Of a DNA stretch of 24,823 bases, positions 2,006 through 13,610 are shown piece after piece. Source of the DNA: a virus; IMG/VR virus record IMGVR_UViG_3300034355_001172, positions 1 through 24,823 of that record. One strand, 5' to 3'. The notes under the pieces are model-generated. The model had not been told where the DNA came from. It made no database searches and saw only the letters and a list, made by a program, of their open reading frames with translations. Position 1 is the stretch's first letter. Every line of letters begins with the position of its first letter. The position numbers and the translations under genes were made by a program.

Positions 2006-2560
2006 ATGACCTTAACGTTAGCACAGAAAAGAGAGTTAGCGACTGACAAGTTGGCAGTGATGACCGCCAAGATGGAAGAAGCTCGCAGCATAATCAGCGA
2101 ACTGGTAGACGCCGTCAAAGCCAATGCTGGTGAAGACGGTTCGAACATGAAGACTGGCAATCTCGCAGAGGCGTGCCGGTTGTACTTCTATCTCTCCGAG
2201 GAGTATGACCGCATGGACGATGTTCGTAAGAAGATCGGCATGCAACTAGAGCACATGTCGCGCGAGGTGATCCCGGAGATCATGTCCGAGGAGGAGACGT
2301 CCTCAATCACGCTCGAAGACGTCCAGCGTCGCTTCACCAAGTCAACCCGCACCACCGCATCGATGGCCGACAAAGAGGTCGCGATGGATTGGTTGCGCGA
2401 GATTGGCAAGGGCGACCTGATCCAACAGTCCGTCAATTCGAGCAGCCTGTCATCGTTCGCAAAGCAGTACATGATAGAGAACCAAGTCGAACTGCCCGAG
2501 TGCATCAAAGTCAACCATATGACGATCACGTCGATCAACAAGCTTAACAGAGGAGCGTAA
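2006..2560 (+). CDS. Phage protein of the recombination/replication region (184 aa)
   Basis: This 184-aa, largely helical and charged protein has a likely coiled-coil N-terminal half: residues 5-40, and 60-95 with heptad-like spacing. The C-terminal region includes the stretch WLREIGKGDLIQQSVNSSSL. Its position directly before a likely ssDNA-binding protein, with only four bases between stop and next start, resembles gene pairs in other phages where a coiled-coil partner sits beside the binding protein. That is a contextual inference; I cannot assign a named family. The start at ATG 2006 is supported by AGGGAG about 10 bases upstream and by promoter P5. Confidence 0.75.
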   Translation: MTLTLAQKRELATDKLAVMTAKMEEARSIISELVDAVKANAGEDGSNMKTGNLAEACRLYFYLSEEYDRMDDVRKKIGMQLEHMSREVIPEIMSEEETSSITLEDVQRRFTKSTRTTASMADKEVAMDWLREIGKGDLIQQSVNSSSLSSFAKQYMIENQVELPECIKVNHMTITSINKLNRGA

Positions 2561-2564
2561 CATC

Positions 2565-3392
2565 ATGGCTAATAAGAACGCGGTTGCAGAGGTCAAGGAC
2601 GGCGGTGTGCCGGCTTATCTCGCGGGCTACAAGGGCCCGGCCACCAACACGATGATGGAGAACGAGGACCGCATCGTCCCTCGCATGAAGCTGTTGCAGG
2701 CGATTTCGCCCGAGCTCAAGAGCTTCAATGAGGCGAAAGAAGGCGTCTTTTGGCACTCCATCCTCAATGAGTCGTTGGGTTCGGAGGTGCGCTTCGCCGT
2801 CATCATGGCGCGCAAATCGTACGTCCTGTTCGCCCCGCGCGGCGACGACCGCATGATCTTGGCCCGCTCTGCCGACGGCAAGACGTGGGACCGCCCGAAT
2901 GAGTCCTTCGAGGTGAAGATCAAAGGCTACGCCAAGCCCATCGAGTGGAACACGAAAGGTAGCGTCGTGGAGTCGGGTCTGGCCAATTTCGGCTCGTCCA
3001 TCCCCGGTGATCCGCAGTCGCCGCCGGCCGCTACGTTGGTCTACGAGTATCTGGTTTACTTGCCGGATTATCCGGACTGCAGCCCGGCCCTGATTTCGCT
3101 GAGCCGCAGCGGCATCAAGCGGGGTAAGGACCTGAACTCCAAAATCTCGCTGCGCGCGGGATCGGTGCCTCAGTTCGCCCAGCTGTACAAGGCGGTGGTG
3201 ACGAGCGAGCAGAGCGCTGAAGGTGGCTACAACGGTTGGTCGTTCAAGTCGGACGGCGTCGCTGACGAGGCTACCTTCAATACGGTTCTGGCGCTGGCGA
3301 AGAGCTTCGAAACGACGAGCTACCGCGCGTCTGACGAAGACATGAGCGACGAGGCGACGGCCGCTCCGGCGGATTCCGGCGGCGCGTACTAA
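2565..3392 (+). CDS. Likely ssDNA-binding/recombination-associated phage protein
   Basis: The product is 275 aa. A globular, beta-rich core (about 30-230) is followed by a flexible acidic end (ASDEDMSDEATAAP) of the sort that recruits partners in ssDNA-binding proteins such as T7 gp2.5 and bacterial SSB. The region LQAISPELKSF with VFWHSILNES resembles phage proteins commonly annotated as ssDNA-binding or recombination-associated, but I cannot confirm homology here. AGAGGAG upstream of ATG 2565 is a good ribosome binding site. The neighbours are a coiled-coil protein before and the DNA polymerase after. In this phage it would act on Z-containing DNA during replication, if the role is right. 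Confidence 0.65.
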   Translation: MANKNAVAEVKDGGVPAYLAGYKGPATNTMMENEDRIVPRMKLLQAISPELKSFNEAKEGVFWHSILNESLGSEVRFAVIMARKSYVLFAPRGDDRMILARSADGKTWDRPNESFEVKIKGYAKPIEWNTKGSVVESGLANFGSSIPGDPQSPPAATLVYEYLVYLPDYPDCSPALISLSRSGIKRGKDLNSKISLRAGSVPQFAQLYKAVVTSEQSAEGGYNGWSFKSDGVADEATFNTVLALAKSFETTSYRASDEDMSDEATAAPADSGGAY

Positions 3393-3403
3393 GAGACCGC
3401 GTG

Positions 3404-3460
3404 GCCCCGGCGATACGGGGCATTCCTCCCTCAACTGTCGGGGCTAGATGGAGAGCCCCG
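3404..3460 (+). terminator. Tandem GC-rich hairpins, terminator or attenuator
   Basis: Hairpin 1 is GCCCCG (3404-3409) with CGGGGC (3416-3421). Hairpin 2 is CGGGGCT (3439-3445) with AGCCCCG (3454-3460), followed by GCCCTTTT. The arms are interchangeable: the right arm of hairpin 1 can pair with the right arm of hairpin 2, and the left arms can also pair. Hairpin 2 with its short U run looks like a leaky intrinsic terminator between the abundant ssDNA-binding-like protein and the polymerase unit. Confidence 0.5.
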
Positions 3461-3481
3461 GCCCTTTTGGAGCACCAGATT

Positions 3482-3697
3482 ATGGCCAAGCGCCTCACCT
3501 ATATTCAGAACTATGATGGCAACCGTGGATGGGTCCTAGAGCCGTTCACCGACGAAGACCACAAGTCCGGCGACTACATTTTCCTTTGCCAGCACTCGGA
3601 TGGCAACGCCACCGAGCTTGACATCGTCAAGATTCCTCGTCACCTGTGGGATAAGCTGGTGAATGAAGTGAACGAGAAGATGAAGGACTTCAAATGA
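3482..3697 (+). CDS. Hypothetical small protein before dpoZ (71 aa)
   Basis: This 71-aa protein begins MAKRLTYIQNYDGN. A longer in-frame reading from GTG 3401 would run through the two hairpins, so ATG 3482 is preferred, with GGAG at 3469-3472 as ribosome binding site. The sequence alternates beta-like segments with an acidic patch (FTDEDHKSGDY) and ends in a Lys/Glu-rich helix. Its stop overlaps the polymerase start (ATGA, 3694-3697), so it is probably translated with the polymerase. No family is recognised, so a link to polymerase function is only positional. Confidence 0.65.
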   Translation: MAKRLTYIQNYDGNRGWVLEPFTDEDHKSGDYIFLCQHSDGNATELDIVKIPRHLWDKLVNEVNEKMKDFK

Positions 3698-5568
3698 CTA
3701 CATCACTCGGTGACCGGGTGGATGGGGCTCTGCGCGCTGTCGCAAAGTCTCCCGTCATCGCCTACGACGTAGAGACCAGTGGAGTGGATTGGAGGCGGAA
3801 TGCGGTTGTTGGTTATGTCATTACTGTTGATGAACAGTCTAATTGGTACATCCCCGTGCGCCATGGTGGCGGAGGAAATCTACTCGATGGAGCGCCTCTC
3901 ACCGACGCAGTCGTTCCTCGACCCATGCCCGTCCACCCCTTCGAAGAGGCCCTCGCCCGAGCCTTTTCCGAACGTAACCGACGAGGATACGTTACGGTGG
4001 GCCATAACATTAAGTTCGACGTTCACCTATCCGCTAACCACGGGGTCATGCTGGGACGGAACCTTAACTGTACCCAAATAACCGAGGCCCTGATCGACGA
4101 GTACGCCGGCTCCTACAGCCTCGACGCCTGCTGCAAGCGCCATGGCGTGACGGAGAAGAAGGGCGACGCGCTCTACGCCCACATGGCTCAATTGTTCGGG
4201 GGCGAGCCCGAGCGCAAGATCATGCAGCACTTTTGGCGACTGGCCGGCGACGACGCTGTGGCGGTGGACTACGCCATGGGCGACGGCACGTCTACGCTCG
4301 ACCTGTGGCGCAGTCAGGCCGAAGACGTCACGGCGGAGGACAAGGACGGTAAGACGCTGGAGAACATCTTTCGCCTTGAGAACGAGCTGATATGGACCGT
4401 TTTTCGCCTTGAGCGCATCGGCATGAAGGTGGACGAAGGGCGACTGGATTGGGCGTTCCGGGAGGTCAAGCGCTTGGTGAGCGAGGCCCGCGCCGACGCC
4501 GGCTTCGATGAGTCATTCAACGTCCGGTCCACCTCCGCCGTGAAGGACTGGCTGATCTCGAAAGGCGTCGTGGACTTTCCTCGCACTGAGCCCACCGCTC
4601 GCTTTCCGGACGGCCAGATTTCGATACGAGCGAAATGGCTGGAGGGCCATGCAGTGGGCCAACCAGTCGTGGCGATTCGCAACGCGCTCGATCTGGAGTC
4701 CAAGTTCTTATCACCGCTCAAGGAGCGCCACCTGTTCGAGGGGCGCGTTCACGCGTCGCTGAACCAACTGAGGCAGGACGACTATGGCACCGTCACGGGC
4801 CGTTTTTCGTGTAACGAACCGAACCTTCAGCAAATCTCTAAGCGTAATAAGAAGCTCGGCAAGATCCTTCGTTCGGTGTTCGTGCCGGACGAAGACAAGA
4901 TCCTGTACGAAGCGGATTACAGCCAAGCGGAGCCGCGCACTTTCGCTCATTACACACAGAGTCCCAAGATCATGGAGGGTTACCTCCGAACTCCGTTCGT
5001 GGATATGCACTCGGTGGTGGCGCAGGAATTGGGCGTAGATCGTGGCACCGTTGGCAAGCGCCTGAACATGGGCATGCTTACGGGGCTGGGCCCGACTACT
5101 CTGGCCGAACATATGGAGTGGCCGGTGGCGAGGGCGCGCGAGGTCTGGGACTGGTACATGACTAAGTTCTTTCCAGAGCTCAAGCAGTTCCATGGCAACG
5201 CCAGTAAGATATATAAGAGCCGGGGCTTCGTGCGCACGATGCTCGGCCGGCGTTGCAATCTGAAGGACCCCAAGTTCGCCTACCAAGCGGTGAGCCGGAT
5301 CATTCAGGGCTCGGGTGCCGACATCATCAAGTACAAGCTGCTAGAGGCCGACAAAATGTGCGAGGCCGACGGCGACGAGGTGAACGTCATCATGACCATT
5401 CACGACTCTTTCGTCTTTCAGGCCCCGCCCGAGAAGCAGGAGTTTGTGGACCAACTGATCGCTCGCATGAGCTCGGTTCAAGAGGACCCGTTCAACATGA
5501 GGGTGCCCTTCCTCATGGACGTTGGCAAGGGCGAGAATTGGGCTATCGCATCGTATGGAGACAAGTAA
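3694..5568 (+). CDS. dpoZ: DNA polymerase, family A, DpoZ type, with 3'-5' exonuclease
   Basis: The 624-aa enzyme copies the phage genome. The N-terminal DnaQ-like proofreading domain is intact: Exo I D25 and E27 (AYDVETSG), Exo II N105 and D109 (GHNIKFDV), Exo III Y193 and D197 (YAMGD). The polymerase domain has motif A DYSQAEPR (D408, E413), motif B K455 and G464 (GKRLNMGMLTG), and motif C IHDSF (H570, D571). There is no 5'-nuclease domain. The O-helix positions that are Phe and Tyr in Pol I (762, 766) are Met459 and Thr463 here. In Z-genome phages with PurZ, a polymerase of this family (DpoZ) accepts Z opposite T. The dpoZ name here follows from co-occurrence with purZ, datZ and mazZ. Start ATG 3694 overlaps the previous stop. 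Confidence 0.93.
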   Translation: MTTSLGDRVDGALRAVAKSPVIAYDVETSGVDWRRNAVVGYVITVDEQSNWYIPVRHGGGGNLLDGAPLTDAVVPRPMPVHPFEEALARAFSERNRRGYVTVGHNIKFDVHLSANHGVMLGRNLNCTQITEALIDEYAGSYSLDACCKRHGVTEKKGDALYAHMAQLFGGEPERKIMQHFWRLAGDDAVAVDYAMGDGTSTLDLWRSQAEDVTAEDKDGKTLENIFRLENELIWTVFRLERIGMKVDEGRLDWAFREVKRLVSEARADAGFDESFNVRSTSAVKDWLISKGVVDFPRTEPTARFPDGQISIRAKWLEGHAVGQPVVAIRNALDLESKFLSPLKERHLFEGRVHASLNQLRQDDYGTVTGRFSCNEPNLQQISKRNKKLGKILRSVFVPDEDKILYEADYSQAEPRTFAHYTQSPKIMEGYLRTPFVDMHSVVAQELGVDRGTVGKRLNMGMLTGLGPTTLAEHMEWPVARAREVWDWYMTKFFPELKQFHGNASKIYKSRGFVRTMLGRRCNLKDPKFAYQAVSRIIQGSGADIIKYKLLEADKMCEADGDEVNVIMTIHDSFVFQAPPEKQEFVDQLIARMSSVQEDPFNMRVPFLMDVGKGENWAIASYGDK

Positions 5569-5837
5569 TGGCCAGTGAATCACGCAATCCGGAAGCTCGT
5601 GAAGCCATCGATTTGGCTATTGAGCATTTGAATGAAACGGTAGACATTTTAATGTGGCTACACGATTGGGACAACGTTGAGTGTTCGACGCTGATGCAAG
5701 CCGATGAACTACACGGGTTACTGATGAGCATTCTGGCCAACATGCCGGACGCGCTCGACAGGTCAACCAAGAACGTACTCACCCGTTTGGCCCAGCAAAA
5801 ATCGGGCCTAGCTCATGGTCGTCGTTGGAGGGACTGA
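5568..5837 (+). CDS. Hypothetical helical protein (89 aa)
   Basis: The ATG at 5568 shares its first base with the polymerase TAA (TAATG), and the TGA at 5835-5837 shares one base with the next ATG, so the gene is tightly coupled on both sides. An upstream extension of this frame runs antiparallel in composition to the polymerase codons and is discarded. The 89-aa product is acidic and predicted all-helical (residues 8-65), ending in a basic tail (HGRRWRD). I do not recognise it. Position alone suggests an accessory to replication. Confidence 0.6.
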   Translation: MASESRNPEAREAIDLAIEHLNETVDILMWLHDWDNVECSTLMQADELHGLLMSILANMPDALDRSTKNVLTRLAQQKSGLAHGRRWRD

Positions 5838-6097
5838 TGGCGTTTAAGAAAGAATGGATCGAAATAGAGGGCACCATCGAGCGCCAAACGGAGAAGGCCA
5901 TGTTCTTCTTTCGTTCGGACCTTGAAAAGCCGGAATGGTACCCTAAGTCGCAACTGGAGATCGTCAGGGAGTCCACCCCTGACGACCCTCTCACCATCCT
6001 GCGCGTGACCAAGTGGATATATGATCAAAAAGAGCAGGAACGAATAGAGAAAGCGAAGGCTGATGAAGGAGCTGGACTTCCAAAAGAAGGTTATTGA
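5837..6097 (+). CDS. Small phage protein with WYPKSQ motif (86 aa)
   Basis: The pattern of this 86-aa protein (EIEGTIERQTEKAMFFF, then EWYPKSQLEIV) is like small phage proteins that carry a T-x-K-A followed by W-x-P-K-S-Q. They are common beside replication genes and usually annotated as hypothetical. GGAGGG at about 5827-5832 precedes ATG 5837 by a good distance. The C-terminal third is a Lys/Glu-rich helix. It overlaps the VRR-NUC gene by 35 bases. The beta-rich core could be an OB- or SH3-like barrel, but that is a guess. Confidence 0.65.
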   Translation: MAFKKEWIEIEGTIERQTEKAMFFFRSDLEKPEWYPKSQLEIVRESTPDDPLTILRVTKWIYDQKEQERIEKAKADEGAGLPKEGY

Positions 6098-6542
6098 CCT
6101 TATTCGCGAAGAGGGGGGTTACGGGTACAAGCTCTCCAACCGTTTCAAAGTGGGCATACCTGACCTCCTCATCGCTGCTCCGATGAGGGGCGTTGTGTTT
6201 TTTGAGTGTAAGTGTTTAAACGATGTGCCGGCGCAATTTGACAAAAAGACCGGCATCACGCCCATTCAGCAGGAGCACCTCAATAAGCTTAATTCGACCC
6301 AAGAGCACCCTATTGGCTGCCAGTTGGTGTTCATGGTTCACAAAGGCGAAGAGAGGGCGGTGGTGTGGCCGGCGCATTGGGACAGAATAAACTCGGACTA
6401 CGAAAGGGACGAAGCGCTATGGGTAGGAAGACAGCCAAGATCAAGGGGCCGGTGGAACGTGATGAAGCTCGTGGAGGCGGTCAGACTGACGAGATCGGGG
6501 CGATTCTCGCAGAGCGTGGCAACACCCATGGAGATTTCGTAG
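6063..6542 (+). CDS. VRR-NUC domain nuclease
   Basis: The product is 159 aa. Residues 1-106 form a VRR-NUC (PD-(D/E)XK superfamily) nuclease: an N-terminal helix with E3, the core GIPDLLIAAP with D34, and FFECK with E48 and K50. Stand-alone VRR-NUC proteins of phages are typically about 90-130 aa and are thought to cut branched or recombination intermediates. The last 50 residues (after WPAHWDRINS) are Arg-rich, look unlike the family and overlap the next gene by 124 bases in another frame. They may be a run-on extension after loss of an earlier stop. The catalytic residues appear complete. Confidence 0.85.
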   Translation: MKELDFQKKVIDLIREEGGYGYKLSNRFKVGIPDLLIAAPMRGVVFFECKCLNDVPAQFDKKTGITPIQQEHLNKLNSTQEHPIGCQLVFMVHKGEERAVVWPAHWDRINSDYERDEALWVGRQPRSRGRWNVMKLVEAVRLTRSGRFSQSVATPMEIS

Positions 6543-6745
6543 TTCAGGCTTGGGTGGCGCAGGAACTTAAGGCTTGCGTCGAAAACGGGCCGAACTGGAT
6601 CCTGATGACCGCTGACAAACGCGAAGCCATTCACATGATCTTGCACAAGGTCTCGCGCGTCGTGTGTGGCAACCCAGACTTCAAGGACACATGGGACGAC
6701 ATTCAGGGTTATGCTCGCCTGATATCCAACAAGCTATCCGACTGA
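6419..6745 (+). CDS. DUF6378-like phage protein (108 aa)
   Basis: The core reads ILAERGNTHGDF, then about 30 residues later ADKREAIHMILHKVSRVVCG, then DTWDDIQGYARL. This is the pattern I associate with DUF6378, a small helical phage protein of unknown function found beside nucleotide and replication genes. ATG 6419 is chosen (AAGGGA at 6404-6409). An alternative GTG at 6452 would shorten the 124-base overlap with the nuclease, but more than 90 bases would remain. It is the last gene before promoter P2 and purZ. The His/Asp/Glu-rich helices recall all-alpha NTP pyrophosphatases such as MazG, but I would not call it one. Confidence 0.75.
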   Translation: MGRKTAKIKGPVERDEARGGGQTDEIGAILAERGNTHGDFVVQAWVAQELKACVENGPNWILMTADKREAIHMILHKVSRVVCGNPDFKDTWDDIQGYARLISNKLSD

Positions 6746-6750
6746 CTACT

Positions 6751-6778
6751 TTTACAACGCGTTACAATGTGCTATAAT
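6751..6778 (+). promoter_or_regulatory. Strong sigma70-type promoter P2 driving purZ
   Basis: TTTACA (6751-6756), a 16-base spacer ending TGC (extended -10), then consensus TATAAT (6773-6778). It begins six bases after the previous stop. Transcription starting near 6785 would give a very short leader with AGGAGG (6787-6792) five bases before ATG 6798. This is the best promoter match in the window and implies high purZ expression. Confidence 0.75.
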
Positions 6779-6797
6779 CAGCGCATAGGAGGACCAT

Positions 6798-7862
6798 ATG
6801 CCATTTAAATTCAGCGCCAGCAGCATCGAAGACGCCTTATATGAAGACGGGTGGTTCGCCAAGGGGGCCCATTTCATCGTGGACGGCCAATACGGCTCGA
6901 CCGGCAAAGGGGCTCTGGCGGCGGTCATCGCCCGCGCCGGCCGACGCGACATCGAAATATACGCCACCAATGCCGGCCCGAATTCGGGTCACACCGCCGT
7001 ATTAGGTGCGGCCAAGATCGTCACCACGCAGTTGCCGGTGGGCGCGGCCGTGGCGAAGCTCCTGCCGGGCCCGCAGTTCGACGTCTACCTTACGGCCGGC
7101 GCGATCATATACCCCAAGATGCTGCAGAAAGAGGTCGAGGAATTTGGCGTCGTGCCGACCATCCACCCGTGCGCGGCCATCATCGAGGCGCACCACGTCG
7201 AGCAGGAGCAGAGCAACGGCTCTTCGAAAGTCGCCGGCACGGCCAAAGGGGTGGGCGCGGCGCTGGCCGACAAGGTCAACAGAGAGGGCAACCTTTGGGG
7301 CCGACAAGACGTCTGGTACGGTTATAGCGGCGTATTGGATCTGGCTAACCGGTGCGTCCTCCACGAGTCAGCGCAGGGGTTTTCACTGGGCGTCAATGAG
7401 GCCCTTTTCGCTCCTCACACAACGAGCCGCGAGTGCACGGTGCAGCAGGCCCTCTCCGACGCCCGCATCCCGCTTAGTCAGGTCCACAAGGTGGCGATGA
7501 CGCTGCGTACGGCACCGATAAGGGTCGGAAATACGCAGGTGGGCTACAGTGGCGATTTCTACGACGACCAGAAAGAGACGTCGTGGGAGGAGCTTGGCCT
7601 TCAGGAGGAGTACACCACCGTCACTAAGCGCGTGCGTCGCGTTTTCACGTGGTCGTGGTCGCAGTTCGTCGACGCGCTGCGCGTCAATGAGCCGGACCTG
7701 CTCAACATTAACTTCATGGACTACCTGAAGAAAGAGGAGCAGGAGCCTTTCGTCCGCGCCGTCATCGCCAAGTATCAATCGATCCTGCCGCACAAAGGCA
7801 TGCCGACGGTGCTTTGCGGATTTGGTCCTGACATCGAGCACATGGGGGTGTGGGTTGACTGA
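6798..7862 (+). CDS. purZ: PurZ, aminoadenylosuccinate synthetase
   Basis: The 354-aa enzyme belongs to the PurA/PurZ family. In PurA the P-loop is GDEGKGK; here residues 33-38 are GSTGKG, so the catalytic Asp is Ser34 and the following Glu is Thr35. This is the accepted signature of PurZ, which uses dGMP rather than IMP and, with aspartate and NTP, makes N6-succino-2-amino-dAMP. The catalytic His is kept (NSGHT, H65). Other family blocks are GTAKGVGAALADK (about 147-159), ESAQGFSL in place of the PurA EGAQG loop, HTTSREC and KRVRRVFTWS. At 354 aa it is shorter than bacterial PurA (about 430), as in phage forms. AGGAGG and promoter P2 precede it. Host PurB and kinases would complete dZTP. Confidence 0.95.
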   Translation: MPFKFSASSIEDALYEDGWFAKGAHFIVDGQYGSTGKGALAAVIARAGRRDIEIYATNAGPNSGHTAVLGAAKIVTTQLPVGAAVAKLLPGPQFDVYLTAGAIIYPKMLQKEVEEFGVVPTIHPCAAIIEAHHVEQEQSNGSSKVAGTAKGVGAALADKVNREGNLWGRQDVWYGYSGVLDLANRCVLHESAQGFSLGVNEALFAPHTTSRECTVQQALSDARIPLSQVHKVAMTLRTAPIRVGNTQVGYSGDFYDDQKETSWEELGLQEEYTTVTKRVRRVFTWSWSQFVDALRVNEPDLLNINFMDYLKKEEQEPFVRAVIAKYQSILPHKGMPTVLCGFGPDIEHMGVWVD

Positions 7863-7875
7863 CACAGACGAATTG

Positions 7876-8064
7876 ATGGTAAAGGGCGTCCCTATATGGG
7901 TGCTGGATCCTGAGGCGAACATCACCGTTCGCGAAATGGCGGAGATCCTACGGGGTCTTCGCATTATGGCTAAAGGTGAAAAGACGCTGGAGCGGTTTCA
8001 CCGCTCTACGCATCGCCATTTTAAGAGGATGAACAATGGAGACCAAGCTAATGATGTACAGTGA
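7876..8064 (+). CDS. Small unknown protein between purZ and mazZ (62 aa)
   Basis: From ATG 7876 this is a 62-aa basic protein. TTG 7855, whose frame overlaps the purZ stop, would add seven residues, and TTG 7822 is less likely. No start has a strong ribosome binding site, so translation may depend on coupling with purZ. The middle (ITVREMAEILRGLRIMAKG) looks helical, followed by a His/Arg-rich segment (RFHRSTHRHFKRM). It overlaps mazZ by 29 bases. I recognise no family. Its place inside the Z cassette makes it a candidate accessory gene, but no function is visible. Confidence 0.5.
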   Translation: MVKGVPIWVLDPEANITVREMAEILRGLRIMAKGEKTLERFHRSTHRHFKRMNNGDQANDVQ

Positions 8065-8365
8065 AAAAGACCAAAAAGCCGCTCAAGCTATAGTAGACGC
8101 CATCGATGCAGGAAATGTGGCCGCCATGGTGCGGCCCGTTCTGGCTGATTTTGCCGTTTTGATGGAGGCCAAGCTTCAGAAGAACGACCACAAAACCAGT
8201 TGGACTAACCTGCCGGTCGAGGCTCTTTTTCGAATGCTGACGCTGGAGATCGAGGAGTTCAAGGTGGCACACGAATTCCTCGGACCCGACGAGGCGATGA
8301 AAGAACTGGTGGACGTCGCCAACTATTGTATGATCCTTCACGACCGACTGAAGAAGCTGAAATGA
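8036..8365 (+). CDS. mazZ: MazZ, MazG-like (d)GTP pyrophosphohydrolase
   Basis: The 109-aa all-helical protein has the MazG-family metal motif: ExxE at E71-E74 (LEIEEF) and ExxD at E90-D93 (ELVDVANY). In Z-genome phages a MazG-type enzyme, MazZ, hydrolyses dGTP (and GTP) to dGMP and pyrophosphate, supplying the PurZ substrate. That assignment here comes from family plus position between purZ and datZ; the sequence itself proves only the MazG fold. AGAGG about eight bases before ATG 8036 supports the start. The stop overlaps the next ATG (ATGA, 8362-8365). A general housekeeping MazG role is the alternative. Confidence 0.87.
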   Translation: METKLMMYSEKDQKAAQAIVDAIDAGNVAAMVRPVLADFAVLMEAKLQKNDHKTSWTNLPVEALFRMLTLEIEEFKVAHEFLGPDEAMKELVDVANYCMILHDRLKKLK

Positions 8366-8625
8366 GCGACAACGACATCGGCATGGCCGTACTCCAAGCG
8401 TGCATCGAATTCCAAATCACCATCAGTAGGTTGACCGAGGGAATGAGCGACGAGGATAAGGCCATGGTGAAGGTCAAGGCCGCCTTGCACATCGGTTGTT
8501 TCCCATTAACGTCGGTGGAGCAAAGCGAATGGCCACGCATGAAGAAGTTCATGCTTGAGAACCTCGCTGAGCGCATCGATCACTTCATGGGGTTCGCTGG
8601 CACTGACAACATGACGGGGCACTGA
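8362..8625 (+). CDS. Small unknown protein between mazZ and datZ (87 aa)
   Basis: ATG 8362 overlaps the mazZ stop; a longer reading from 8326 lies inside mazZ and is rejected. The 87-aa acidic, helical product includes LQACIEFQITISRL (about 10-23), MSDEDKAMVKVKAALHIG, and a C-terminal MENLAERIDHF-like segment with several Met. The stop is one base before the datZ start (TGATATG). I do not recognise it. Its conserved-looking position in the Z operon suggests it could work with MazZ or DatZ, but there are no catalytic residues I can name. Confidence 0.6.
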   Translation: MSDNDIGMAVLQACIEFQITISRLTEGMSDEDKAMVKVKAALHIGCFPLTSVEQSEWPRMKKFMLENLAERIDHFMGFAGTDNMTGH

Positions 8626-8626
8626 T

Positions 8627-9190
8627 ATGGATGACACTTGGTTGCTGGGGCGCTTCGAGCGCAATCTGGCTGACATTCGCCGCTGGTCAATCGTGCGCAC
8701 GACGCGCGAGCAGTCGGTGGTGGAGCACTCTTTTTACGTGGCCCTGATGGTGCCGCGCCTGCTGCGCCAGTATGGCTTCGAAGACCCGCAAATGTTGCTC
8801 GACGCCACGCAATACGCGCTGCGCCATGATATGAGCGAGGTCCTGACGGGCGACATCGCCACGCCTATCAAAAAGCGCTTGCCTGAGGGGGCGTTCACCA
8901 TGATGGAGATGGAATTCGGCTTTCCACCGGAGGAGATCGACCCAATCGTCCAGCAGGCGGTGAAGGTGATCGACCTTTTCGAAGCGGCCGCCTTTTTGGC
9001 CGAGGAGATCGCAATTGGCAACTCCCGCGTCGTAGACGTGCAACGCGTCATCAAGTACAAGCTCGAAAAGGCGTGCGTGGCGTTCGAAAAAGCGGTTGGC
9101 AAAAGCGACGGTCTGTATCGCGTGATGAGCACCGTATTATACCACTTGCAGTACTCCATGGTCGATCCGCTGGAGCCAGACTTGTCCTGA
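8627..9190 (+). CDS. datZ: DatZ, HD-domain dATP triphosphohydrolase
   Basis: This 187-aa HD phosphohydrolase is close in layout to E. coli YfbR. Metal ligands are H34 (VVEHSFYVA), H67-D68 (ALRHDMSEVLTGD) and D116 (VKVIDLFEAA); E71 and D76 are also in place. The length and spacing match DatZ of Z-genome phages, which strips dATP to deoxyadenosine so that A is kept out of phage DNA. The segment RRWSIVR places W20 and I22 near the start; as I recall, in cyanophage S-2L DatZ equivalent residues shape the base pocket that excludes 2-amino purines. A general 5'-nucleotidase is the alternative, but beside purZ and mazZ DatZ is much more likely. Confidence 0.93.
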   Translation: MDDTWLLGRFERNLADIRRWSIVRTTREQSVVEHSFYVALMVPRLLRQYGFEDPQMLLDATQYALRHDMSEVLTGDIATPIKKRLPEGAFTMMEMEFGFPPEEIDPIVQQAVKVIDLFEAAAFLAEEIAIGNSRVVDVQRVIKYKLEKACVAFEKAVGKSDGLYRVMSTVLYHLQYSMVDPLEPDLS

Positions 9191-9215
9191 CGTCCTCAAT
9201 GTGTTATAACACATT
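9182..9215 (+). promoter_or_regulatory. Promoter P3 with 18-base palindromic operator
   Basis: TTGTCC (9182-9187), a 17-base spacer and TATAAC (9205-9210). The -10 lies at the centre of a perfect 18-base palindrome, AATGTGTTATAACACATT (9198-9215), which could be bound by a dimeric repressor. It sits between the datZ stop and the helicase start, with AGGAGA about ten bases before ATG 9233. Confidence 0.55.
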
Positions 9216-9232
9216 AGACACAGGAGATCATC

Positions 9233-10645
9233 ATGTCTTATCGTTGGATGCTCAATGGCTCGCCGCGCCCGGTGCAAATCGAGGCGCTCACTAAATCGTA
9301 TGGCCATAAGGGGTGGGGCCACTGGTTGGAGATGCGACTTGGCAAGACCGCCACGGCGCTCAACGAGTTTGCGCAGTACATTCACGATTTCGACATGCGA
9401 TACATGGTGGTCTTGGCCCCTAACAAGTTCAAGCCTGACTGGATATTGGCGGCTCAAAAATGGGGCCTGCAAGTGCCGTTGCACGAATTCAATTCGTCCG
9501 ATGAAAAAGCGCTCACCAAGTTCTTGAAGGACAACGCGCACGGCATGATCGCCGTGAACTACGAGGCGCTCACGTACAAGAAGAATTTCGACGTGATCAA
9601 GCAGGCATGTGGTCCGCAGACCTTTTTGGTGGCCGACGAGTCGATCAAGCTCAAGAACCCTAGCAGCACCACGTACAAGAATGCCTTGCGCCTGTCGAAA
9701 GAATGCGGCTTCAAGCGCACGCTGTCTGGCAAGCCGTTGACGCAAGGCGCGCAGGACCTATACGGCCAGCTGCGCTTCATGGGCGAATTGAACGGTTGGG
9801 AGTACGCGTTGTTTAAGGCGGCTTTTTGTATCATGGGTGGATACATGGGCAAAGAAATCATCGGCACCAAGAACGAGCCGCGCCTGCGCGAAATCCTCGA
9901 CCGGTGTTCGTTCACGGCCCGCAAAATCGACTGGATCGAAGGCTTTGAGAAGCCTGATTATTCGACCCGTCGCGTACGCCTGAGCAACGAGCAGGCCACA
10001 ATGTATGCCCAAATGCAGAAGGATTTCGTGGCGCTCATCAAAAACGGGGCCATGATCACCGCCGAGCAGGTCATCACTAAGCTCATCAAGCAGATGCAAA
10101 TAGCGTCTGGCTTCATCATCGACGACAACGGCAACGCCCACGACATCGTGCCGCCCAAGGACAACCCGCGCATCCTTGCGGTGCGCTCCATCCTTGAGGA
10201 CGAGCTAGACACCAAGCTCATCATTTTCGCTCATTATCGCCATTCCATCAGCCTGCTTGAAAAGGCGCTGGCCGACTTTAATCCAGCCCTTATTCGCGGG
10301 CAGGCGAACGACGTGATCGAACAAAAACGCAAGTTCAACGAGGACGAGACATGCCGGGTGCTCATTGGCCAGATCGACGCGTCTAAGTACGGCCACGAGC
10401 TCATCGGATCCGACAAGTCGCCGTGCCTCACCACGGTCTTTTACGAATCGACATACAGTAATGACGCCCGGTCTCAATGTGAAGAAAGGAACCAGTTTGG
10501 AGATCGAGTGCGTCCATTATCCATCATAGACTTGTCGTCTACCGACTTAGATGATACAATCATACGAGCCCTACAGAGAAAAGAAGACGTAGCTTCTATG
10601 ATTCTAGGGTATAGCCGAGAAACCGGGATATTACCCCATGTCTAA
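9233..10645 (+). CDS. SNF2-type superfamily 2 DNA helicase/translocase
   Basis: The 470-aa protein has the SF2/SNF2 set: motif I MRLGKT (K38, T39), motif Ia VVLAPNKFKPDW, motif II ADES (D135, E136), motif III LSGKPLT (165-170), and a C-terminal RecA-like domain ending in a motif VI form QCEERNQFGDR instead of the usual QxxxRxxRxGQ. It is smaller than cellular SNF2 proteins and typical of phage-encoded SNF2 helicases that sit beside polymerases and nucleases. Expected roles are replication, recombination or DNA packaging support. Promoter P3 drives it. From about 10440 to its end, codon use shifts toward A/T-rich and AGA/AGG codons, like the HNH gene that overlaps its last eight bases. Confidence 0.9.
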   Translation: MSYRWMLNGSPRPVQIEALTKSYGHKGWGHWLEMRLGKTATALNEFAQYIHDFDMRYMVVLAPNKFKPDWILAAQKWGLQVPLHEFNSSDEKALTKFLKDNAHGMIAVNYEALTYKKNFDVIKQACGPQTFLVADESIKLKNPSSTTYKNALRLSKECGFKRTLSGKPLTQGAQDLYGQLRFMGELNGWEYALFKAAFCIMGGYMGKEIIGTKNEPRLREILDRCSFTARKIDWIEGFEKPDYSTRRVRLSNEQATMYAQMQKDFVALIKNGAMITAEQVITKLIKQMQIASGFIIDDNGNAHDIVPPKDNPRILAVRSILEDELDTKLIIFAHYRHSISLLEKALADFNPALIRGQANDVIEQKRKFNEDETCRVLIGQIDASKYGHELIGSDKSPCLTTVFYESTYSNDARSQCEERNQFGDRVRPLSIIDLSSTDLDDTIIRALQRKEDVASMILGYSRETGILPHV

Positions 10646-11147
10646 GACATGTAAAAGGTGTAAAACGGAAAAAAACGACAACGAATTCGCAAAAGGTCAA
10701 GTTTGGTGTAGGAAATGCAAAGCAGATTACAGTGTTGGGTATTATTCTCGCCCACACGTTAAGGCTAGGCAGGCCGCACACAGCAAACACCACCAAGCTA
10801 AATCGCCTAGGCATGGGTTATTGATAAGACTCATCAAAGCACTGAAAAGGAAGCCTACATCAAATCCTGTAACCATCGATGAGATAATGGAAATGTGGAA
10901 TCGCCAAGGAGGCAAATGTGCCTTGACGAATTTGCAAATGGTATGGGGCGGCGATGGAAATGGAAACCACAAAATTAGGCCACATTCTGTATCCATAGAC
11001 AGAATAGATAACAACGAGGGATACACACTGCAAAACGTCAGGCTTATATGCCACGCTATTAATTCATTCAAAGGAAGCATGACTGACGATGAAATGAAAG
11101 AGATGGCTAGGCATCTAATTGACGATCCCATCTCTAATGTGTTATAA
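10638..11147 (+). CDS. HNH homing-type endonuclease
   Basis: The product is 169 aa. The N-terminus carries a zinc ribbon (CKRC at about 5-8 and CRKC at about 24-27). The C-terminal half carries the HNH core: GGKCALTN, then HSVSIDRIDN, then YTLQNVRLICHAIN. Such free-standing HNH enzymes in phages are usually mobile elements that nick or cut intronless alleles. Start ATG 10638 overlaps the helicase stop by eight bases. Codon use is markedly more A/T-rich than most of the + strand, which fits recent acquisition. A second enzyme with a similar zinc ribbon is at 22236-22724. Promoter P4 begins within its last codons. Confidence 0.88.
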   Translation: MSKTCKRCKTEKNDNEFAKGQVWCRKCKADYSVGYYSRPHVKARQAAHSKHHQAKSPRHGLLIRLIKALKRKPTSNPVTIDEIMEMWNRQGGKCALTNLQMVWGGDGNGNHKIRPHSVSIDRIDNNEGYTLQNVRLICHAINSFKGSMTDDEMKEMARHLIDDPISNVL

Positions 11148-11148
11148 C
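11119..11148 (+). promoter_or_regulatory. Candidate promoter P4
   Basis: TTGACG (11119-11124) and TATAAC (11143-11148) lie 18 bases apart, with AATGTGT immediately before the -10, identical to P3 over 13 bases (AATGTGTTATAAC). A GCGCC/GGCGC hairpin follows in the leader (11157-11170), then AAGGAG before ATG 11195. Confidence 0.5.
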
Positions 11149-11194
11149 GTGTTGTAGCGCCGAGGGGCGCGAGCAGAGTCTTAAGGAGACCACC

Positions 11195-11521
11195 ATGAAA
11201 TCAAGAAGCGTTCTCAGCCAAGCCGAAAAGTTCGAGGTGGGAGAGTATATTCGCAAGCGGATCAAGCGCCGGGCCAATGGTACGTTCAAGTACATAGATG
11301 GAATGAACGACGCCCGCATCGCCGTGCACTTTAACATCACAGAGCAAAACGTTCGCGCCGTGCGCATGGCGGCGTTTGGATCCCTCATTAGTTACAAGGA
11401 CCCAGAGGTTTCTAAGGCCAAGCCAGCCGATAACACTGGGGCCGGCATCATCAAGCGCCTCGAAAAGGTCGAGTCCATTATGGGCCGCTTGTGCAATGAA
11501 TTGGGTGTCGACTATGAGTGA
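11195..11521 (+). CDS. Possible DNA-binding protein (108 aa)
   Basis: The 108-aa basic protein includes YIRKRIKRRANGTFKY (about 18-33). It then has DARIAVHFNITEQNVRAVR (about 39-57), which reads like a helix-turn-helix with a recognition helix at NVRAVR, and finally a C-terminal helix that could form a coiled coil (IIKRLEKVESIMGRL). This pattern suggests a small regulator or nucleoid-type protein. The HTH reading is by eye and not certain. AAGGAG precedes the ATG, and promoter P4 with a leader hairpin lies upstream. The stop overlaps the next start by eight bases. Confidence 0.65.
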   Translation: MKSRSVLSQAEKFEVGEYIRKRIKRRANGTFKYIDGMNDARIAVHFNITEQNVRAVRMAAFGSLISYKDPEVSKAKPADNTGAGIIKRLEKVESIMGRLCNELGVDYE

Positions 11522-11696
11522 CGCTTACTCCATCATCAAGGCCATGCGCATCGGTTACGACCTAATTCAGGACGAAGACGGGCTATACTGGCATCGCAAG
11601 AACGACAAGATGGAGGGGCCGTTCCCCTCCATCGACGACGCGGCGCGCAACGCCATCATCGACCACGAATACGAACAAGGACAACAAAATGCTTAA
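11514..11696 (+). CDS. Hypothetical protein (60 aa)
   Basis: ATG 11514 begins inside the previous gene (ATGAGTGA overlap). The longer open frame from 11376 is an out-of-frame shadow of that gene. The 60-aa acidic product has a beta-like middle (LIQDEDGLYWHRKND) then helical DDAARNAIIDHEYEQ. The pattern of a short two-strand hairpin plus helix is common among small phage proteins that lack an assigned family. The stop overlaps the next ATG by eight bases. No function is visible. Confidence 0.6.
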   Translation: MSDAYSIIKAMRIGYDLIQDEDGLYWHRKNDKMEGPFPSIDDAARNAIIDHEYEQGQQNA

Positions 11697-12030
11697 GGCT
11701 CTCAAAGATATGCTAGGTCTAACGCTGGCGGCGATAATGTTGCTGTCGCCCTTCATCCTCGGAGTGTCGGCTCTCTTTTTCGCTCTGTCAGCGATCCTGT
11801 TTTACGCAACTCCATGCGGAGCCGCGTCTCTTGGTGAGATGTCGGCAAACCAATGGCGCTACGAGTCCACCTCGAACGCCTATGGTCCTCACGGCTCCGA
11901 ATGGACCTATGGTAGCGTTAACAATCCCTACGGGCCAAATGGCTCGGAGTGGAGCACGTCTAGCGCCACCAACCCCTACGCCATTGATCCGCCGACGATC
12001 AATTCGAGCGGCATCTACGAGGGAGATTAA
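11689..12030 (+). CDS. Membrane or secreted protein with NPYGPxGSEW repeats
   Basis: This is a 113-aa protein. Residues 8-42 are strongly hydrophobic (signal anchor, or signal peptide ending near ATPCGAA). The remaining 70 residues form about three degenerate repeats: NAYGPHGSEW, NNPYGPNGSEW and TNPYAIDPP, each spaced about 19 residues with Ser/Thr linkers. Repeats with the NPYGxxGSxY pattern occur in small exported bacterial proteins of unknown role. The Cys near residue 43 is not in a clear lipobox. Expected location is the inner membrane or periplasm. It could modify the host envelope during infection, which is inference. Start and stop overlap the neighbours (TAATG at 12028-12032). Confidence 0.7.
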   Translation: MLKALKDMLGLTLAAIMLLSPFILGVSALFFALSAILFYATPCGAASLGEMSANQWRYESTSNAYGPHGSEWTYGSVNNPYGPNGSEWSTSSATNPYAIDPPTINSSGIYEGD

Positions 12031-12233
12031 TGGACTATGTCATCGCAGGACTTGCAGGACTTTCTATGATCATTTGGGCGTCGGGCTTAGCCGATGCCCT
12101 CCTTTCGCCAGTTAAACGAACCGTTTGGGCTAAGCGCTCCGGCCCGCGAGTTCGCACCACGATCAGGATGCGCGAGATGGAGACTATTAATGGATATGAT
12201 GACTTTAAGCGCCATCACCAGCGGCGAAGCTAA
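12030..12233 (+). CDS. Small membrane protein with basic tail (67 aa)
   Basis: A single hydrophobic segment at residues 3-26 (VIAGLAGLSMIIWASGLADALL) is followed by an Arg/Lys/His-rich soluble tail, which by the positive-inside rule would face the cytoplasm. The ATG shares a base with the previous stop (TAATG). The size and single span are compatible with a lysis accessory or host-membrane effector, but a holin call would not be justified. It overlaps the next gene by 44 bases in another frame. Confidence 0.6.
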   Translation: MDYVIAGLAGLSMIIWASGLADALLSPVKRTVWAKRSGPRVRTTIRMREMETINGYDDFKRHHQRRS

Positions 12234-12546
12234 TGCCGGCTGGGGGCCGCAGGCGATCGAAAACCGCTTGCGCGCCATCGCCACCAACGCGGTGCGCGAG
12301 GCCCGAGTGGCGCTTGGCCAAGACGCCGGCCCGTGGCTAGATGATCACGCTCGTCGCCTCAACATGATTTTTGACCTTCTGCATCTAGACGGCGCGTCGG
12401 TGGACATGGCGACGGAAGCTCTTCCTATGGCCGCTTCTCAACAGGCCGCAAGGAATCCAGCTCTTGACGCAGTAGAGAAGGCGCTGCTTAAACTGCAAGA
12501 CGTTGAAGAGCCTGCGGCGACGCCATCCAAGGCTGCGCGCAAGTGA
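12190..12546 (+). CDS. Hypothetical helical protein (118 aa)
   Basis: ATG 12190 is preferred over 12094 because GGAG at 12178-12181 is well placed and the upstream extension is an Arg/Pro-rich shadow of the previous gene. The 118-aa product is Ala-rich and predicted helical throughout (for instance IENRLRAIATNAVREAR and NPALDAVEKALLKLQ), ending with a basic PSKAARK tail. I recognise no family. It ends 11 bases before a strong intrinsic terminator and so closes the unit that starts at P4. Confidence 0.6.
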   Translation: MDMMTLSAITSGEANAGWGPQAIENRLRAIATNAVREARVALGQDAGPWLDDHARRLNMIFDLLHLDGASVDMATEALPMAASQQAARNPALDAVEKALLKLQDVEEPAATPSKAARK

Positions 12547-12553
12547 CGAAATG

Positions 12554-12575
12554 GGGCGGCTTCGGCCGCCCTTTT
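12554..12575 (+). terminator. Intrinsic terminator with UUCG tetraloop
   Basis: GGGCGGC (12554-12560), TTCG loop (12561-12564), GCCGCCC (12565-12571), then TTTT (12572-12575). The C(UUCG)G tetraloop and seven G-C pairs make this the clearest rho-independent terminator in the window. It lies between the gene ending at 12546 and the dcd-like gene, whose AGGAGG follows directly. Confidence 0.8.
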
Positions 12576-12589
12576 CATAGGAGGAAACG

Positions 12590-13186
12590 GTGTCTCAATT
12601 AAGCGCTCAAAGCATCAAGAAGCTGTGCCAACCGACCAAATGGTGCGGATTGATGAAGCAACAACCGATGATCGTCCCATTCGTGGGTGAGAAAACGGTG
12701 GTCAATGGCAAAAGTTATGGCCTGTCTGCCGCCAGTTATGACGTTCGCATTGCGCACGACGTCATACTTGGGCCCGCCCCGTCGTACGTTTTGCGTAATA
12801 TGTTACAATACAGCAAAGGCATGCCAGTGGCTGGCACCATAGAAGGGTGGCGCGACAATATGAAGGGCTACCCTCCAAATCACGCTCTGGCGCACACGAT
12901 TGAGGACTTTTACATTCCGCACAACGTCGTTGGATATGTGTGCGACAAGTCCACCTATGCCCGCATTTTCGTTTCAGCGTTCAACACTCTTTTCGACCCC
13001 GGATTCTGCGGTAACGCCACGCTGGAGCTCGTGAACCTAAGCGACAAGATCGTCAGCATCAAAGCCGGCGACCCTATTTGCCAATTCACGTTCCACTGGC
13101 TCGACCGCAAAACAGATAGGCCCTACAATGGCAAGTACCAGAACCAAACCAAAGCCGCACACCCCGCAAGGTTTGAAGGCGTCTGA
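12590..13186 (+). CDS. dcd: dCTP deaminase-like (DCD/dUTPase family) enzyme
   Basis: GTG 12590 is the start, set by a perfect AGGAGG six bases upstream. The 198-aa protein follows the DCD/DUT trimer fold: SAASYDVR (47-53), IPHNVVGYVCDKSTYAR (109-125), FDPGFCGNATLELVNL (135-150) and AGDPICQFTF (159-168). S121, R125 and E146 match the Ser, Arg and Glu used by E. coli dCTP deaminase, so deamination of dCTP to dUTP is likely. A dUTPase activity cannot be excluded. It would feed dTTP synthesis. DCD-like enzymes are also found in phages with altered bases, so a modified substrate is possible. The 3' end overlaps the GcrA-like gene by 59 bases. Confidence 0.85.
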   Translation: MSQLSAQSIKKLCQPTKWCGLMKQQPMIVPFVGEKTVVNGKSYGLSAASYDVRIAHDVILGPAPSYVLRNMLQYSKGMPVAGTIEGWRDNMKGYPPNHALAHTIEDFYIPHNVVGYVCDKSTYARIFVSAFNTLFDPGFCGNATLELVNLSDKIVSIKAGDPICQFTFHWLDRKTDRPYNGKYQNQTKAAHPARFEGV

Positions 13187-13610
13187 CTTCAAAGATAAGA
13201 TCCGCGACGACATTAATGCCGGCCGCACGTATGGCGAAATAGCCGACGAAATCGGCATAAGTCGCAGTTCTGTGGCCGGAATGGTGGGCCGACTCAAAGT
13301 ATTGGGCGAAATCACCTACACAAACCCGGCAAAGAGCATGGGCAAACGCTTGGCCCCTGCAAAACGCGTGACGGCGCTTAGACGTCCGCCAAAAGTGGTT
13401 GTGGACGTCAGTTCGATCACGCCACTGGAGGTGGACCTTTTGGATCTTGGACATCGTCAGTGTAGGTATCCTGTTCGCAGTCACGGATCAAGGCATTGGT
13501 TCTGTGGTTTGCCGACTGACGAGATGGCTTCGTATTGCTCAGCACACGACCACATCACGCGCGTTCCGTCTAAGATAAACATTAAAAAGACCGGCCATTA
13601 TAGGGGATGA
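13128..13610 (+). CDS. GcrA-like transcriptional regulator
   Basis: The 160-aa protein has an N-terminal helix-turn-helix (RTYGEIADEIGISRSSV, 33-49, then GMVGRL), a variable basic linker, and the GcrA C-terminal block LLDLGHRQCRYPV with FCG and YCSAH. C112, C126, C137 and H140 are in the conserved spacing. GcrA of Alphaproteobacteria binds sigma70-RNA polymerase and acts at promoters carrying N6-methyladenine in GANTC. A phage version would be expected to steer host or phage transcription. The start is uncertain: ATG 13128 has no strong ribosome binding site and overlaps dcd; TTG 13171 is the alternative. The stop overlaps the lipoprotein start. Confidence 0.85.
   Translation: MASTRTKPKPHTPQGLKASDFKDKIRDDINAGRTYGEIADEIGISRSSVAGMVGRLKVLGEITYTNPAKSMGKRLAPAKRVTALRRPPKVVVDVSSITPLEVDLLDLGHRQCRYPVRSHGSRHWFCGLPTDEMASYCSAHDHITRVPSKINIKKTGHYRG

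Follow-up and report, generated by a model that had tools for sequence, protein, structure and literature searches.

A diverged, accessory GcrA homologue encoded by a phage with a probable Z genome

The window, by which is meant the whole 24,823-nucleotide stretch of viral DNA analysed here, encodes a GcrA-family protein of 160 aa (13128-13610, plus strand) in a phage that probably carries Z in its genome. Compared with its relatives, the protein has the domain order of the family, has lost the canonical recognition residues of host GcrA and is encoded at an accessory location. The reading we prefer, with a probability of somewhat less than 0.6, is that of an accessory, diverged GcrA homologue serving as a sigma70 cofactor that redirects the host polymerase without canonical m6A-GANTC reading. 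The sigma-interacting domain (SID), which keeps the sigma70-interacting core, would dock on region 2 of host sigma70, and the helix-turn-helix (HTH) would bring the polymerase to promoters through a sequence preference other than canonical GA(m6A)NTC, for use either in host takeover or in the control of phage middle and late genes. The action on the host proposed for gp222 of phiCbK (PMC3556154) provides a phage precedent, and the host in question is presumably an alphaproteobacterium. A phage that pairs such a protein with a probable Z genome provides a natural setting for asking whether a sigma70 cofactor functions on adenine-free templates.

The GcrA-like open reading frame reported in the initial annotation was found exactly where it had been placed. 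Its match to PF07750 extends across HTH and SID and scores 58.8 bits against a curated cut-off of 26.9 (E 1.1e-15), which establishes family membership, and a profile of its relatives matches the GcrA chains in the PDB. With the NCBIfam equivalog sig70cofacGcrA (NF050816) the score is 35.3 bits, and the protein is considered a diverged member rather than a canonical GcrA because this is far under the equivalog cut-off of 280. An alternative TTG start at 13173 is possible and would drop just 15 unconserved residues. The predicted HTH spans aa 18-58 (13179-13301, plus strand), as judged from the alignment with host GcrA and from three helices modelled with pLDDT of about 88-93, and contains the recognition helix ISRSSVAGMVGRL. 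The predicted SID spans aa 98-150 (13419-13577, plus strand) with the pattern CRYP..FCG..YC..H and pLDDT of about 93-96 over aa 101-140 and 76 over aa 141-150. AlphaFold2 supplied with 49 aligned sequences gave both domains with high confidence and a flexible linker between them, while single-sequence prediction gave the HTH alone. The arrangement of an N-terminal HTH and a C-terminal SID is borne out by Foldseek matches to 5yix_B and 7ye2_G, an agreement that is partly circular since the input alignment of the model consisted of GcrA sequences. The SID superposes on 5yix_B with an rmsd of 2.3 over 47 columns (TMt 0.72, prob 0.99), and the weak E-value of 0.18 is to be expected for a domain this short; in the VIA-align rows of Foldseek, GcrA appeared only as 7ye1_G with a meaningless rmsd of 15.6. 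The modelled resemblance of the SID to 5yix_B and 7ye2_G supports, without proving, docking on sigma70.

The SID retains the core CR-P, FCG, YC and H, while GDP and the AYQP tail are gone and CRWP has become CRYP. Identity to canonical GcrA is 0.23 in the SID and 0.24 in the HTH, compared with 0.41 and 0.61 among canonical proteins themselves. As the SID too has diverged, sigma70 binding may have been lost or altered. Another possibility is that the protein is a sigma70 decoy or anti-activator. Its SID would then sit on sigma region 2, blocking host GcrA as well as the transcription of the host cell cycle, and the HTH would play a secondary part. In favour of this, the PurZ record G016 encodes a GcrA-like product of 72 aa (L096:1462-1680, minus strand) that consists of an SID alone, has the CRYP variant too and lacks an HTH, and SID-only family matches are found also on host chromosomes (L101). 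The G016 match is, however, under the Pfam cut-off (23.0 versus 26.9 bits), and the window protein retains an HTH that folds confidently in the model, so that a decoy is a possible but unlikely explanation. The DpoZ of G016 is also the best match to the window DpoZ among the loci tested (51%).

The HTH pointed out as atypical, TYGEIADEIGISRSSV, is indeed present and differs in alignment from that of host GcrA. The recognition helix of the host proteins reads V-T/S-R-N-A-V-I-G-K-V-H-R-L and that of the window I-S-R-S-S-V-A-G-M-V-G-R-L, the canonical RNAVIGKVHRL being replaced by RSSVAGMVGRL. At the positions where N, K and H are found in 48, 48 and 44 of 51 host proteins, and which are taken as DNA-contacting from conservation and not from a complex, the window protein has S, M and G. 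Three modes of action had been envisaged for the phage copy, namely on host promoters only, independently of methylation, or by reading Z as a mark of phage DNA. Independence of methylation fits best, because the conserved host recognition residues (RNAVIGKVHRL) are replaced, and nothing favours Z as a phage mark. A functional GcrA that reads m6A-GANTC at host promoters only and drives the cell cycle of the host, the role suggested for phiCbK, would agree with the shared family and domain order, with the phage precedent and with a host that probably has a GcrA of its own. Yet the N, K and H of nearly all host GcrAs are gone from the window helix, and most of the phage GcrAs fetched keep this motif (N in 72 and K in 70 of 86, shares that are biased upwards by a scan pattern that itself held NxxxGK). 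We consider this explanation rather improbable.

The loss of both N and K is not confined to the window. It was seen also in the Agrobacterium phage Atu_ph08 and its prophage relatives, in RHph_X2_24, CcrRogue and BL10, in two Brevundimonas phages, in the IMG/VR GcrA L183 and in three chromosomal paralogues, and no PurZ was found in the records of Atu_ph08, RHph_X2_24, CcrRogue and Bajun. Because this kind of change is shared by a chromosomal paralogue and by adenine phages that lack PurZ, divergence of the HTH arises without Z, and no link of the atypical HTH to base chemistry is supported. The chromosomal GcrA paralogue, with the recognition helix MSRDVVAGLVNR, occurs in three alphaproteobacterial genomes (G355:C10, G259:C105 and G432:C318) and adjoins ftsK and aminotransferase genes in G355.

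That the phage has a Z genome, as claimed initially, is probable, as homology backs a Z-DNA cassette of DpoZ-, PurZ- and DatZ-like genes about 5 kb upstream of gcrA. All cassette genes are on the plus strand. The DpoZ-like family A DNA polymerase (3694-5568) matches NF038380 with E 2.7e-92 and 310 bits against a cut-off of 500. It is followed by a PurZ, or 2-aminoadenylosuccinate synthetase-like protein of Z biosynthesis (6798-7862), matching NF038379 with E 1.8e-63 and 214 bits against a cut-off of 300, and phrog_1211; its motif QYGSTGKG carries Ser. The PurZ of Ochrobactrum phage vB_OspP_OH (hereafter OH) likewise falls under the NCBIfam cut-off with 241 bits. A candidate MazZ-like pyrophosphohydrolase (8036-8365) is suggested by its position and by a weak 30% alignment with OH gp33, annotated as an NTP pyrophosphohydrolase; Pfam MazG had no match in this product. 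A DatZ-like HD dATP triphosphohydrolase (8627-9190; phrog_7076 E 1.5e-25, PF12917) precedes the SNF2-type helicase (9233-10645; PF00176, phrog_62), which is the final gene of the syntenic replication and Z cassette and has relatives in 55 of 82 loci. The gene set expected of a Z phage (PurZ, DpoZ and a dATP-removing enzyme) is thus present as best families with clear E-values. Because PurZ and DpoZ are under the curated NCBIfam exception cut-offs, the presence of Z in the virion DNA, as judged from sequence, is graded as likely only. The description of OH (PMC7139368) reports three nucleotide-metabolism genes, and no test of the base was found in the passages of it that were searched. Elsewhere in the window, 1086-1493 encodes a stand-alone DnaA C-terminal domain protein without the ATPase part (PF08299 E 5e-16), and the phage Ssp-JY42 (L007) has an annotated DnaA C-terminal gene 3.7 kb from its gcrA.

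The position of gcrA shows no sign of its belonging to the Z system and indicates an accessory gene. It is the last plus-strand gene, after which minus-strand genes run to the window end. A dCTP deaminase-like gene (12590-13186, plus strand; PF22769 E 1e-15, phrog_1663 E 3e-43) ends within the 5' part of gcrA, and the left edge of this accessory block, 10638-13610, is an endonuclease VII or HNH-like gene (10638-11147, plus strand; phrog_1035 E 2.5e-20). In OH the helicase is directly followed by minus-strand structural genes, and as no genes lie between them there, the window gcrA is assigned to an extra 3-kb block at the helicase/minus-strand boundary. By tblastn, window genes from 2006-10645, cassette included, had matches in dozens of PurZ loci, and the endonuclease VII-like, deaminase and gcrA genes of the block had none in the 82 loci, which extend up to 10 kb from purZ. 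This PurZ set excludes the window and comprises 80 loci from an IMG/VR profile scan together with OH and Burkholderia phage Bm1, many of them fragments and some near duplicates. Full-length GcrA over the PF07750 cut-off was found in 0/82 of these other PurZ records, with none in OH or Bm1; among the 80 IMG/VR records the matches consisted of one weak SID-only match (G016) and two HTH-only matches (G001 and G002, 14.9 bits), the latter rejected as generic HTH. Direct IMG/VR scans with the window GcrA alone and with the window PurZ alone retrieved no relatives, and the sole match among genome contigs (L099) was a fortuitous hit in an antisense ORF. Scans for promoters and terminators, covering the surroundings of gcrA and 1700-2050, did not exceed chance expectation.

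The GANTC count that had been proposed as a check gave no signal in the window, where 42 sites were seen and 48.4 expected under synonymous-codon shuffling (sd 5.5, z -1.2), so that the site is not significantly avoided. A depletion suggested by the Markov estimate (0.72) is unsupported by the shuffle, and the intergenic sites (3 versus 1.6 expected) are too few to be informative. In OH the same shuffle revealed strong avoidance, with 17 sites against 78.0 expected (sd 6.4, z -9.5). By the Markov ratio, depletion is seen in many of the PurZ contigs closest to the window (for example L018 0.11, L052 0.28 and L016 0.36) and not in those farther away, whose median is about 1.0; it declines with distance from the window (Spearman 0.52, p 2e-6, a guide only as the contigs are related). 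PurZ phages near the window (L002, L016-L052, including OH, L018 and L052) hence strongly avoid GANTC despite the presumed replacement of A by Z, and GcrA-bearing contigs without known Z genes are similarly depleted (median 0.53). As OH-related PurZ phages avoid GANTC strongly, like GcrA-bearing adenine phages, CcrM sites may stay under pressure even when Z takes the place of A. The N6/N4 methylase PF01555 was found in 0/46 PurZ records and 11/50 GcrA records (Fisher p 0.0006, uncorrected for record length, completeness and relatedness), an absence that agrees with Z phages making no use of adenine methylation of their own. Another site, CCNGG, is the most depleted of the XYNYX type in the window (57 versus 100 expected), with low counts in many PurZ contigs as well.

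None of the GANTC and methylase results shows the window GcrA responding to base chemistry. Discrimination between Z- and A-DNA, in which Z is read as a mark of phage templates or Z templates are avoided, would call for an HTH site where 2-aminoadenine shifts affinity, so that the activity of the sigma70 cofactor would depend on whether the template is that of the phage (Z) or that of the host (A or m6A). In favour of such a Z-sensing role, GcrA and a Z cassette co-occur in this one phage and the HTH is without canonical recognition residues, but the role is most improbable: comparative evidence for it is absent, the same kind of HTH change is found in PurZ-less phages, full-length GcrA is missing from 82 other PurZ records, PurZ was found in 0/50 GcrA-bearing IMG/VR phage records, and GANTC is without bias in the window.

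The diverged sigma70 cofactor favoured here belongs to a family common in phages. A scan with canonical GcrA matched 288 IMG/VR stretches, and 33 records of an annotated phage collection, mostly Caulobacter phages, had a GcrA match; the Caulobacter GcrA sequence used in the latter search and for the identity of about 20% given below agrees with the compared stretches of PDB chain 7ye1_G save for one short linker stretch. OH resembles the window phage in the syntenic DpoZ-PurZ-MazG-DatZ-helicase order and differs from it in having no GcrA and in avoiding GANTC. Caulobacter GcrA (PDB 7ye1, 5yix and 5yiu) shares the domain order and the SID fold with the window protein, whereas its RNAVIGKVHRL helix and its GDP and AYQP SID motifs are not kept. 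The phage-encoded PF07750 proteins of the phiCbK gp222 type are alike in combining HTH and SID; gp222 itself was reported in 2012 with the suggestion that it changes the replicative state of the host (PMC3556154), and the CcrRogue GcrA is also without the canonical N and K; phiCbK and CcrRogue lack PurZ, however, and their proteins are just about 20% identical to the window GcrA. Among the annotated phages, the best match is gp05 of Agrobacterium phage Atu_ph08, with its relatives; it has the recognition helix ISRSSVISHYNR and the same SID core, and the Atu_ph08 record is without PurZ.
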